Of a stretch of 64,000 nt of DNA, positions 25,945-30,454 are shown in pieces. The stretch lies in assembly GCA_028820655.1 (NCBI GenBank), contig JAPPIK010000032.1:120250-184249 (forward strand), in the 5' to 3' direction. Position 1 is the stretch's first letter, and each line of letters starts with the position of its first letter. Position numbers and translations under genes: made by a program. Source of the stretch: Candidatus Poribacteria bacterium. Lineage in GTDB: Bacteria > Poribacteria > WGA-4E > JAJDTR01. The notes under the pieces are model-generated. The model was not told where the DNA came from and made no database searches. It was given only the letters and a program-made list of their open reading frames with translations.

Positions 25945-26124
25945 AGAAGACAGGGGCAATGTTAGTTGATTCGCTTCACAAAAGATGATGTGTGAAGTAG
26001 CACGGATCAAATAGCCCATGACCCGTTAGCAATTTAATTGACGCGAATTTTCTTGATAACTGCACAAATCGATAGGGTAAATTCTGGGTCAATCAATAGG
26101 CATATGTCCAAACCTGCAACCGTC

Positions 26125-26156
26125 GAAACCAAGTGTTTTCTTGAAAACTTGGTTTC
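26125..26156. promoter_or_regulatory. Long stable hairpin GAAACCAAGTGTTTT-CTTG-AAAACTTGGTTTC
   Basis: 13 bp with one bulged G and a 4-nt loop. Confidence 0.7.
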
Positions 26157-26235
26157 TTTATGCCACGAAACCGCCGAATCCGAATATTCTTTTGATAACT
26201 TGATTTCCACCCTCACTCAACACGCCAATGTTTGA

Positions 26236-26264
26236 TTGACAACTTAATATCTGTGTGGTATATT
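26236..26264 (+). promoter_or_regulatory. Consensus sigma70-like promoter TTGACA-17-TATATT upstream of the DUF488/RecQ island
   Basis: -35 26236-26241, -10 26259-26264, 17-bp spacer. Confidence 0.75.
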
Positions 26265-26281
26265 TTAACAAGCCATCCGTC

Positions 26282-26395
26282 ATGAAGGGGAACTCATTTT
26301 TTCTGTCGGCATTTTGTTGGCGTTACGATTCCCGAAAACCCGCTCTAGCAAAGGAATCCTCCGTTTCAGGACCTGCCAACACGCGGCTTATATAG
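26282..26395 (+). CDS. Candidate 37-aa leader peptide MKGNSFFLSAFCWRYDSRKPALAKESSVSGPANTRLI
   Basis: Begins ~11 nt after the predicted start of transcription and stops inside the loop of the terminator-like hairpin; no clear Shine-Dalgarno. Confidence 0.3.
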   Translation: MKGNSFFLSAFCWRYDSRKPALAKESSVSGPANTRLI

Positions 26396-26417
26396 ACGCT
26401 CCGTTGGCATCTTTTTT
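26374..26417 (+). terminator. Intrinsic-terminator-like hairpin in the island leader; competing antiterminator pairing with 26315-26321
   Basis: TGCCAAC (26374-26380) pairs GTTGGCA (26403-26409), inner GCG/CGC and CT/AG pairs, then TCTTTTTTC. Confidence 0.65.
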
Positions 26418-26609
26418 CTCACTTAATCGGTTCAATGAGAAATTGTGGCGCGCAACAAGCGGAAATCCAAGCATTCTTTGAGACAAGAGATGATCGAATG
26501 TGGAAACAGATTGAACACAGCAAATTGATAGATGCATTATTACTTTCTAACCCGCTATCCAAGCGTTCCTCAAATGGTGGGCTCAAACTTTTCTTCAATG
26601 TCATGATAT

Positions 26610-27176
26610 TTGTCTTCCATGGATAGGTTACAAGAAGTGCTACCCATTTTTACGATTGGCTACGGTAGCCGTTCGATTGAGCAGTTCATTGACGTCCTGA
26701 AAGTGCATCAGATTGCTTACCTCATTGATGTGCGCTCGGCGCCCTATTCGCGCTACAAACCCGAATTCTCAAAGGAAGCATTGGACGCGGAACTGGGACG
26801 ACACGGAATTCGGTATGTTTACATGGGCGACACATTGGGCGGTCACCCCGATAACAAAGAGTGCTACGATTCGAACGGGAAAGTCGATTACGACAGAGTG
26901 AAGAAGACCGAAAACTACCAAGTCGGAATCAATCGCCTTCAAAAAGCGGTCGCACAGAAGCAGTGCGTTGCTCTCATGTGCAGTGAGGGAAAACCGGAAA
27001 ACTGTCACCGGAGCAAACTTATAGGGGAGACTCTGGAAAAGCGGAACGTACCGATAACTCATATTGATGAAAACAATGAGCCACAGTCTCAAATGCATAT
27101 CATTGATCGCCTTACTGGGGGACAAATGCCATTGTTTGGTGAAGATGAGTTTCAGTCGCGCAAGCGGTACCAATGA
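26610..27176 (+). CDS. DUF488 family protein
   Basis: FTIGYGSRSIEQFIDVL, DVRSAPYSRYKPEFSKEAL, GGHPDN, CSEGKPENCHRSKLI; alternative start 26619. Confidence 0.9.
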   Translation: MSSMDRLQEVLPIFTIGYGSRSIEQFIDVLKVHQIAYLIDVRSAPYSRYKPEFSKEALDAELGRHGIRYVYMGDTLGGHPDNKECYDSNGKVDYDRVKKTENYQVGINRLQKAVAQKQCVALMCSEGKPENCHRSKLIGETLEKRNVPITHIDENNEPQSQMHIIDRLTGGQMPLFGEDEFQSRKRYQ

Positions 27177-27182
27177 TCTACA

Positions 27183-27671
27183 ATGAAACCCAAGATTGTT
27201 ACCATCGGAGTGTATGGATTTGATGAGTCCAGTTTCTTTGAAGCCTTGCGTGAAGCAGAGGTTGATACCTTCTGTGACATTCGCTCCCGGCGGGGATTAC
27301 GTGGTGCAACATACGCATTCGCCAACAGCCAACGCCTTCAAGCCCGACTTGCAGACCTAGGCATTCATTACATTCATCGCAAAGATCTCGCGCCAGCGAA
27401 AGTTACTAGAGATAAGCAGGCGGAAGCAGACAAGGCGGCAAAAATTGCCAAACGCAAACGTACAGTATTAAATGAAGCATTTATAGAGGCATACCATTCA
27501 GATTGCCTATCGACATTTGAACCGGCAAGTCTTCTTAATGACTTTGAAGTGGATACACAGGTCGTAGCGCTGTTTTGCGTCGAAAGAGAACCAGAGGCGT
27601 GTCATCGTTCATTGTTAGCTGCCAAACTGGCGACGGTTCTTAATTTGGAGGTGGAGCATATTGTGCCATGA
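27183..27671 (+). CDS. DUF488 family protein, divergent second copy
   Basis: TIGVYGFDESSFFEAL, DIRSRRGLRGATYAFANSQRL, CVEREPEACHRSLLA. Confidence 0.85.
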   Translation: MKPKIVTIGVYGFDESSFFEALREAEVDTFCDIRSRRGLRGATYAFANSQRLQARLADLGIHYIHRKDLAPAKVTRDKQAEADKAAKIAKRKRTVLNEAFIEAYHSDCLSTFEPASLLNDFEVDTQVVALFCVEREPEACHRSLLAAKLATVLNLEVEHIVP

Positions 27672-30454
27672 AAGTTTTGATAGTTGCGAAAACCAGAATG
27701 GGAAGTGGTGCATGTATTGGGGCGATTACGGAGGACGGAAAAAGCGTTCGATTAATACCGTACGGTGCTGACCCACATGACGGAGCCAATCGGGAATACG
27801 AAATTGGAGACGTTTGGGAGATTTGCGCCAAACCTGCGAGTCAATTGGCCCCGCCACACACAGAAGACATCGTGGTCTACAATAAGAACCGACTTCGCGA
27901 AGCAAAGGACCTCATCGGATCCATAGAAAGATTTATGCCTTCCATGCACGGCAGTCCATTTGGTCTATATGAAGGATTGTTACAAACTACCGGTGACGGC
28001 GCACTGTATGTCACCGAGAAGAGTGGAATTCCCCTATACAGCACAACCTTCTGGCGTCCGGATGTGTCACTTGAGCGCAATACAGAGGGAAGACGTATAC
28101 ACTATTGCTATCCGACCAAGAATGGTGGTTGCACATTTGCTTATGTGGGGTTTGAAGATCGACCGCTTGAAGTGATACCCAAAGATACGCTGCTGCGTAT
28201 CTCGCTCGCTCGACCTTGGCGTCCGAAAGACAGACCGAATGACGAGTTGCGCTGCCATGCACAGATATCCGGTTGGCTCCTCACGGATGAAGACCAAAGA
28301 AAAACGGTACTCTCAAATGATACCGCACGTTCTCGATCTCAGACGACGTCACACTCACCCTCGAAAATCCTTCAAGATGTATTTGGGCATTCACGGTTCC
28401 GTTCGTTGCAGGAGGAAATCGTCGATCACATATTAGACGGTTATGATGCTTTCATTGTCCTGCCAACCGGTGGCGGAAAGTCGCTCTGCTTCCAATTGCC
28501 TGCGCTCATCTTTGACGGCGTGACTGTCGTCATCTCTCCATTGATTTCATTAATGGAGGATCAGGTGATGAAGTTACAACAGCGGAAAGTGGGCGCAACT
28601 TTTCTCAACCACACGGTTGAGTGTTCTGAGTACGTCTCGACGATGCAACGTGTTAAGCGTGGTGAAGTCAAACTACTTTACATGGCTCCTGAAACGCTCA
28701 TGCGACCTGAAATCCTCTTGATGCTTGATGAATCGAATGTGTCGTGTCTTGCAATTGATGAAGCCCACTGTATTTCCCAGTGGGGACACGATTTTCGTCC
28801 GGAATATCGAGAGTTAGTCTCCGTCCGAAGGCGTTTTTCGCACGCAGTTTGCCTTGCACTTACGGCTACTGCTACACCCCGGGTTCAAGAGGACATTAGG
28901 CAATTGCTCTGCATTAGCGAGGAGAGTCAATTTGTCGCTAGTTTTGACAGGGGGAATCTGTTCCTCGCGGTTGAACCAAAAGTTAACATGCTTGAACAGT
29001 CGCTCGCGTTTCTTAATAAACATCGCGGCGACCCCGGTATAATCTACTGCCAAACAAGGGAGCAAGTTGAATCGTTGGCTCATGAGATAGCGCGGCGCGG
29101 CATTCCAACTCTCCCGTATCACGCTGGATTGGACAGCGAAATCCGTAGTAGGAATCAGGACGCTTTCATTACCGGAGAAATTCAGGTGATTGTGGCGACA
29201 ATTGCCTTCGGGATGGGAATAGATAAAGAGGATGTGCGCTTTGTGCTACATACGGGTTTACCAAAAGAACCTGAATCTTACTATCAGGAGATTGGCCGCG
29301 CTGGACGGGATGGCGAGCATGCAGAGTGTCTCCTATTGTTCGGTTGGGCGGATATGGACACCATAAGGCATTTCATCGATCAAGGTACGTCATCTGAGCA
29401 CGAGGGGCGGTTGGACCGATTGAACATACTTGTTGATTGGGCACTTTCAAATGAATGCAGGCGTAAAGGGTTATTAGCTTACTTTGGTGAACGTTATGAG
29501 AATGAAAGTTGTGGAAGGTGTGACAATTGCCGGAAGGAACAGATGAAAAAGGTTGACTTGACTACACAAGCTCAACAATTTCTCTCATGTGCTATACAGA
29601 CAGGCGAGATTTTCGGCGAAAGCCACATCGTTAATGTCCTACGTGGTTCAAAATCACAAAAAGTCATCAATAGCAAACATGATAGACTCTCGACCTACGG
29701 CATCGGTTCAGAGCACAGTAAAGAGGAATGGAGACATGTGGCATTTCAGCTAGTTCAATTCGGATTATTGAACCGAGATTCACAACACGGTAGTCTCCGA
29801 ACGACAGATAAGGGACGGGACGTGATAAATGGAGATGTGCAGTTCTTGGGATTGCCTTGGAATTCGGCAACCCGCAGCGACAAGAATCGTCACAGTTTGA
29901 GAGGGGAGCACGAGAACGGCAAACGCCAATCCGTGATGCACACAATGACAAATCCATTAAAGTTATACGACATTCCCTCGAACATAGAAGAAACTCTCTT
30001 AATGCCGGAAGACGAGGAATTCGATGGAACGCAATTTGAGAAACTGGGCCTTACGTTTGACGAGAAAATTCACAACTGCGCCGCTTACATTAAGAACATC
30101 CGCGCCCAACAGAAGACTTTGGACGCTCACATCGAAATCCTTCAAGAAGAAATGCGTGCACTTCAGGGGAAACGCGAAGAATTGGAGAACAACCGTAAAG
30201 GCGTTGCGCAATACATCAAAGGCTTGCTTGAGTCTCTCGGACTTGAAAAAGCCGGTAACTCTATCCATCGTGTGCGCATCGCCCGTTCTCCACTCACTGT
30301 TGAAGTAGATATGGAAAAACTTGAATCCACATGGATTAAGCGAACAGAGAACGTGTACGCCGATAAGCGCGGAATCATTGAGCACATTAAAAAAACAGAT
30401 GAAACCCCGGATGGGGTCAGGCGTATCGAAAATACTCACCTCCGTGTAAGTTGA
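27668..30454 (+). CDS. RecQ-like DNA helicase with extra N-terminal domain and C-terminal coiled-coil/Gp157-like extension
   Basis: LPTGGGKSLCFQLPAL, AIDEAHCISQWGHDFRPEY, ATIAFGMGIDKEDVRFVLHTGLPKEPESYYQEIGRAGRDG, C-GRCDNC zinc motif; 928 aa with ~230 aa N-terminal and ~150 aa C-terminal additions; ATGA overlap with the upstream gene. Confidence 0.93.
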   Translation: MKVLIVAKTRMGSGACIGAITEDGKSVRLIPYGADPHDGANREYEIGDVWEICAKPASQLAPPHTEDIVVYNKNRLREAKDLIGSIERFMPSMHGSPFGLYEGLLQTTGDGALYVTEKSGIPLYSTTFWRPDVSLERNTEGRRIHYCYPTKNGGCTFAYVGFEDRPLEVIPKDTLLRISLARPWRPKDRPNDELRCHAQISGWLLTDEDQRKTVLSNDTARSRSQTTSHSPSKILQDVFGHSRFRSLQEEIVDHILDGYDAFIVLPTGGGKSLCFQLPALIFDGVTVVISPLISLMEDQVMKLQQRKVGATFLNHTVECSEYVSTMQRVKRGEVKLLYMAPETLMRPEILLMLDESNVSCLAIDEAHCISQWGHDFRPEYRELVSVRRRFSHAVCLALTATATPRVQEDIRQLLCISEESQFVASFDRGNLFLAVEPKVNMLEQSLAFLNKHRGDPGIIYCQTREQVESLAHEIARRGIPTLPYHAGLDSEIRSRNQDAFITGEIQVIVATIAFGMGIDKEDVRFVLHTGLPKEPESYYQEIGRAGRDGEHAECLLLFGWADMDTIRHFIDQGTSSEHEGRLDRLNILVDWALSNECRRKGLLAYFGERYENESCGRCDNCRKEQMKKVDLTTQAQQFLSCAIQTGEIFGESHIVNVLRGSKSQKVINSKHDRLSTYGIGSEHSKEEWRHVAFQLVQFGLLNRDSQHGSLRTTDKGRDVINGDVQFLGLPWNSATRSDKNRHSLRGEHENGKRQSVMHTMTNPLKLYDIPSNIEETLLMPEDEEFDGTQFEKLGLTFDEKIHNCAAYIKNIRAQQKTLDAHIEILQEEMRALQGKREELENNRKGVAQYIKGLLESLGLEKAGNSIHRVRIARSPLTVEVDMEKLESTWIKRTENVYADKRGIIEHIKKTDETPDGVRRIENTHLRVS

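Follow-up and report, generated by a model that had tools for sequence, protein, structure and literature searches.

In the 64,000-nucleotide stretch of poribacterial DNA considered here (the window), a promoter and the structured leader behind it form one of about 40 dispersed copies of a repeat, and not an attenuator confined to a single locus. The sequence is probably a copy of a dispersed mobile promoter-attenuator, in which a bistable leader RNA gates readthrough into the co-oriented gene that follows. The repeat family, the covarying alternation between two pairings, the U-rich tail, the co-orientation, the MITE ends of one subfamily and the insertion at the window locus are all computed; transcription, termination and a cellular signal that sets the balance are inferred. 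The original prediction had described a leader with three pairing segments; the dispersal into about 40 copies, the MITE sister subfamily and the insertion relative to a sibling genome were absent from it.

The window copy and its relatives

The element occupies an intergenic stretch of about 675 bp (25945..26618, plus strand, like the promoter, boxes and genes described below), of which the part with dispersed homologues in the same genome runs from 26204 to 26587 (38 BLAST matches; 38–40 matches to covariance models). Just 5′ of the element, at 26123-26158, stands a palindromic repeat, GAAACCAAGTGTTTTCTTGAAAACTTGGTTTC, a 36-bp piece of which has dozens of copies in the sibling genome; it could terminate transcription from the radical SAM gene. 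The promoter (26236..26264) is present as originally described, with TTGACA at 26236-26241, a 17-bp spacer and TATATT at 26259-26264; it agrees with the consensus at 11 of 12 positions and carries a TG before the -10 hexamer, and its spacing places the predicted transcription start at 26271. Promoters of this class, with the conserved spacer, occur at 87 sites genome-wide, compared with 0 for a reversed-pattern control. Many sites with the pattern TTGANNACTTWAC...GTATAWT stand without the core described below and head other repeated leader families (for example L111/L112/L114, L118/L120/L125 and L122-L124), some of them with GTTAGCC...GGCTAAC pairs.

Past the predicted start the window copy carries a T-run (26297..26302; 6–8 T, or T-rich sequence, in most copies), followed by four boxes. 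Box 0 (TGTCGGCAT, 26304..26312), a further upstream segment that the original prediction did not contain, is a potential partner of box 1 and does not change in step with the base that switches in box 2. Box 1 (segment 1; TGTTGGCGT, 26315..26323) is a partner of box 2 and a candidate antiterminator, and box 2 (segment 2; CTGCCAACA, 26373..26381) is common to both of the competing helices. Box 3 (segment 3; GTTGGCAT, 26403..26410) is the other partner of box 2 and a candidate terminator, and is followed by a U-rich tail (26411..26418). Between boxes 1 and 2 lies a conserved AACCCGCTCTAGCAAAGGAA (26337..26356; consensus AACCCGCNCYANCAAAGG), which forms the apical hairpin of the 1:2 fold and is a candidate sensor or binding site. 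At the T-run and its homologous positions a small GC-rich hairpin, varying among copies, often precedes the 6–8 T, and this T-run just before box 0 may be a second, early terminator or pause.

The first downstream gene encodes a DUF488 domain (26619..27176, with an alternative TTG start at 26610) and is followed by a second DUF488 gene (27183-27671) and a DuOB-RecQ-Gp157 fusion (27668-30454). The best-matching PADLOC models for the genes of 26619-30454 are PDC-M45B and DpdF, and the sibling counterpart of the locus is an 811-aa open frame with DUF488 at its start (G001 C100:13202-15635).

When 26200-26609 was compared with its own genome by BLAST, 38 places were found, at 66–85% identity, with the long ones at 66–80%. 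A covariance model, R1, built on an alignment of 31 of these places (A2), matched 38 sites in the window's genome, 14 in G001 and 1 in G014, and a second model, R2, matched 40, 15 and 1, respectively, with no copy in the other 82 genomes of the phylum (85 in all). G001 is a sibling species and the sole same-genus genome among the 85, and G014 belongs to a different family. The sole copy outside the genus (L058/L099, G014 C91) sits on a 4-kb contig of that other-family genome and may reflect either contamination or transfer. What stays constant is a short unit, comprising the promoter and a core of about 120 nt, and older copies have nothing else in common. Two further observations concern individual loci: L091 and L032 precede the same downstream gene (proteins 90% identical) with unrelated upstream DNA, the element being of the GTTCACAT type in one species and of the GTTGGCAT type in the other, and the long leaders of L010, L013, L021, L023 and L024 contain tandem units such as GATCAAGCGAGTGGATAGCGA...GCGATAGAGATC, arranged as a mosaic across loci.

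Competing helices and the terminator-like end

The three segments originally proposed to pair exclusively were recovered in the window, with segment 1 (TGTTGGC) at 26315-26321, segment 2 (TGCCAACA) at 26374-26381 and segment 3 (GTTGGCA) at 26403-26409, the last followed by TCTTTTTTC. Taken alone, the leader RNA of the window shows no unusual stability relative to shuffles (z -0.53), and the long loop of the 2:3 hairpin keeps it off the list of a simple consensus terminator scan. No Rfam family matched at gathering score in the window; with the threshold relaxed to E of 1, the window element and L013 5400-8500 likewise gave no match. Judged from the window alone, then, the three-segment pattern could be chance; it is the comparison among copies that makes it non-random.

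In the window's genome boxes 1, 2 and 3 read GTTRGCAT / ATGCYAAC / GTTRGCAT, with a variable base that is G/C/G in some copies and A/T/A in others and switches jointly, and in most copies of the sibling genome they read GTTCACAT / ATGTGAAC / GTTCACAT, so that across copies the three segments co-vary as G/C/G, A/T/A and C/G/C, together with a neighbouring pair. In A3, an alignment of 46 copies from three genomes that was fitted to the 1:2 structure and so leans towards that helix, 94.6% of the cells of helix 1:2 and 93.8% of those of helix 2:3 are paired. For 1:2 the switching column pair is AU in 15 copies, CG in 13 and GC in 13, with a neighbour that is GC in 30 and AU in 13; for 2:3 it is UA in 15, CG in 14 and GC in 13, with a neighbour that is CG in 29 and UA in 13. 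The covariation score of either helix in A3 was reached by 0 of 500 shuffles, slid registers paired in at most 45% of cells, and both helices are retained in 41 of the 46 aligned copies. The same outcome for both helices was obtained from A1, a MAFFT alignment of 31 copies from the window's genome that was not fitted to a structure, and the inner hairpin of the 1:2 fold covaries too. Box 2 and box 3 states are concordant in all 29 copies and box 1 and box 2 states in 28 of 30. On a tree built without the box columns, in which many branches are weakly supported, the A-state arises about five separate times, and these roughly five independent switches, many on such branches, are the whole basis of the covariation within the window's genome; the box state of L011, A/C/G, looks like an intermediate. 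Homologous leaders thus preserve the alternating complementarity that had been put forward as a check, and the exclusive 1:2 versus 2:3 alternation is strongly supported.

Boxes 0, 1 and 3 carry one motif and box 2 its inverse. A box 0:box 2 antiterminator was considered and rejected, as the two boxes agree at the switching base in only 14 of 28 copies. Box 0 and box 1 can form at least 7 of 8 pairs in 40 of 46 copies, a figure to be read in light of the motif being partly self-complementary through G-U pairs; 80% of cells also pair between box 1 and box 3 in a comparable register. In one copy (L105:6001-6123, oriented), TGTACCTATT, which is normally located downstream of box 3, stands in place of boxes 0 and 1, and boxes 2 and 3 are still complementary. 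An integron attC-like site, suggested by the inverted AAC...GTT cores, was rejected by inspection: the copies do not lie in cassette arrays, and the core letters of the boxes do not fit the attC consensus.

The terminator-like end after segment 3, also part of the original prediction, recurs among the copies: at least 4 T are found within the 8 nt after box 3 in 40 of 46 copies, compared with 11% of background windows, and these tails have several different sequences. They are often imperfect (CTCTTTCC, CTCATTTC), and therefore termination could be weak. Hairpin energies average about -10 kcal/mol for 2:3 and about -16 for 1:2 with its inner hairpin. When the growing window RNA was folded, 1:2 was predicted until box 3 emerged and 0:1 plus 2:3 thereafter, and the full window fold takes 0:1 plus 2:3 at -37.1, compared with -33.1 when 1:2 is forced. 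The 0:1 pairing, weakly supported because its motif is partly self-complementary, would give the topology of a four-segment attenuator.

It had further been proposed that translation of a 37-codon ORF (26282-26395) controls readthrough. The ORF exists in the window but is not conserved across the 26 copies with a nearby promoter, where the ATG is missing, the frame is 2–39 codons long or the counterpart is out of frame; the frame shifts stem from changes in T-run length. A leader-peptide attenuator was therefore rejected, and translation-coupled control is unsupported because the ORF is not conserved.

Orientation, downstream genes and rival readings

With the downstream gene defined as the nearest ORF of at least 150 aa, that ORF lies on the same strand as the element in 46 of 47 copies (p=7e-13), and upstream ORFs divide 30:21. 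Box 3 is broken in L086, the sole exception. The genes that follow the copies are unrelated to one another and include Der/EngA, thymidylate kinase, a lyase, a transketolase-like protein, ECF sigma factors, PhyH, FIST and polysaccharide export genes, among others. The original placement of the leader upstream of a co-directional gene is thereby borne out by the family as a whole. The distance from core to gene has a median of about 590 nt, which is unusual for a classical attenuator. With the switch placed downstream of the promoter, transcription would have to read through it to serve the gene.

The mechanism that we consider probable is as follows. The element would bring to its site a sigma-70-type promoter and a bistable leader RNA of about 120 nt. 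In one state box 1 would pair with box 2, and in the other box 2 would pair with box 3 to give a terminator-like hairpin and U-rich tail, with box 0 possibly holding box 1. If 1:2 persists, transcription from the element would cross the switch into the adjacent co-oriented gene, and if 2:3 forms, it would end as a short RNA of about 147 nt. A cellular signal would set the balance between the two, perhaps through the conserved AACCCGCNCYANCAAAGG hairpin.

Co-orientation alone supports promoter use and is no proof of attenuation, and the alternative that must be taken most seriously is that the element spreads and persists only for the promoter that it offers the next gene, the core being a passive or mRNA-stabilising structure in the 5′ UTR with no termination switch. 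Co-orientation needs nothing beyond a promoter, promoters of this class also stand at the head of other repeat families that lack this core, the tails after box 3 are often imperfect, and MITE promoters are well known (PMC10969869). Yet a passive stem needs no dual complementarity of box 2, whereas 41 of 46 copies keep both helices, compensatory changes occur in both, and the U-rich tail is retained in differing sequences, so that we regard a promoter with a passive leader as unlikely, although it deserves some weight.

As an alternative to the leader, the original prediction had offered a stand-alone sRNA of about 147 nt (26271-26417). Extended to the family, this would make each copy a trans-acting RNA ending at the 2:3 hairpin, with the downstream genes transcribed from promoters of their own. 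The elements do have a promoter, a terminator-like end and many copies, and MITE-derived sRNAs are known in Coxiella (PMC10969869); an attenuated short RNA, moreover, would arise under the leader and the sRNA readings alike. However, action in trans would not explain why 46 of 47 copies face the next gene or why an alternative helix that abolishes the RNA's own terminator is kept, and in the window our promoter scan lists no further promoter on the way from the element to the gene. Because the copies are co-oriented and the genes downstream of them unrelated, a leader is favoured, and the sRNA is disfavoured to the point of being improbable.

That the boxes are DNA sites for a transposase, recombinase or regulator, incidentally forming direct and inverted repeats and co-evolving with the protein, would fit the motif shared by boxes 0, 1 and 3 and inverted in box 2, as well as the differences in box type among subfamilies, but is very improbable given that both box types coexist in one genome, that the boxes lie mid-element, away from the transposon ends, that the inner hairpin covaries too and that box 0 has the motif yet ignores the switch, which argues for RNA pairing and not independent protein sites.

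Mobility, known systems and significance

The promoter-attenuator reading, to which we return here, is joined by evidence that the family moves. The GTTCACAT subfamily is a MITE, with simple elements of 496–601 bp. Several of its copies carry the terminal inverted repeat CAGGGGAAACGCATCTRA at both ends, about 25 bp upstream of the promoter and some 390 bp past the start of the core, with 0 matches for the reversed pattern. Target duplications of 10 bp are intact in L092, L093 and L094 (10/10) and nearly so in L088 and L098 (9/10), and no target duplication was found in L090, L096, L097 and L089. The same terminal repeats occur at 103 sites in the sibling, again with 0 for the reversed pattern. 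Most of these 103 CAGGGGAAACGCATCTAA sites in G001 form pairs about 236 bp apart, too short for promoter plus core, and thus outline a second element of about 236 bp that is sometimes found beside the long one (L090, L093, L097). Transposon ends were seen in the GTTCACAT subfamily only; for the window's own GTTGGCAT subfamily there are no clean transposon ends, and no terminal repeat lies within 2.5 kb of its core in the window. At the corresponding locus of the sibling about 70 bp (C100:13142 to about 13212) separate the radical SAM gene from the DUF488 gene, compared with about 675 bp in the window, and the window copy therefore lies in inserted DNA. At several other loci the sibling is empty or has a much shorter intergenic stretch where the window's genome has an element. 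In the single orthologous pair of copies that was found (L095/L102), differences number 0 of 29 positions in the promoter and 0 of 35 in the boxes, compared with 7 of 89 in the rest of the core and 20 of 251 in the rest of the element.

Amino-acid operon attenuators such as that of trp consist of consecutive segments with competing pairings, the last hairpin being terminator-like. The family described here shares these competing segments and the terminator-like last hairpin, but it differs in that no leader peptide is conserved, many unrelated genes are involved and the copies are dispersed and mobile. Mobile attenuators, in which transposon terminators lie upstream of unrelated genes, have been proposed from an analysis of premature terminators (PMC2965389). 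The likeness to these is close, with a transposon-borne, terminator-like sequence directly upstream of unrelated cellular genes and exaptation as a 5′ regulator, and the family has the hallmarks of unrelated downstream genes, presence or absence between sibling genomes and a MITE subfamily. That study presents its cases as insertion-sequence terminators, 3′ or 5′, whereas the family here has its own promoter, a covarying alternation of antiterminator and terminator, and near-strict co-orientation. BIME/REP attenuators likewise are repeats upstream of genes with candidate terminators and antiterminators, but BIMEs are mosaics of short palindromes unrelated in sequence to this family, and no such promoter is described for them (PMC2965389).

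Promoter-bearing MITEs are known, and roles for MITEs as riboswitches or terminators have been called conceivable (PMC10969869). Correia repeat enclosed elements of Neisseria and other promoter MITEs resemble the present family in being small and non-autonomous, in having terminal inverted repeats and in driving adjacent genes from sigma-70-like promoters. For these elements the open-access literature consulted (PMC2649163, PMC10969869) describes no conserved alternative RNA fold past the promoter; in the present family the promoter is internal, and a structured leader separates it from the 3′ end of the element. The pneumococcal BOX, RUP and SPRITE repeats are also dispersed, with folded transcripts that are sometimes long 5′ leaders, but they are enriched between convergent genes and read as parasitic (PMC3049150), the opposite of the arrangement here, where 46 of 47 copies point towards the gene that follows; the present family also has a promoter of its own. 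Within the open-access literature compared, what would be new here is a mobile attenuator with its own promoter and with covariation for both states.

The usual view is that attenuators arise separately at each gene. With a mobile cassette that unites promoter and switch, a genome could bring many genes under a single RNA-based control through insertions. It is possible, and we put it forward tentatively as a somewhat unlikely extension of the reading above, that a transposable family carrying a promoter and a bistable RNA switch as cargo has brought dozens of unrelated genes, including the essential der/engA and tmk, under one signal, and so built a regulon through transposition of a riboregulator. 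With about 55 natural copies, covariation behind them and empty sites in a sibling genome, the family gives a concrete test set for the ideas that MITEs can serve as riboswitches or terminators (PMC10969869) and that transposon terminators can become attenuators (PMC2965389). As its copies point into many unrelated genes, the leader may be a portable on/off control.
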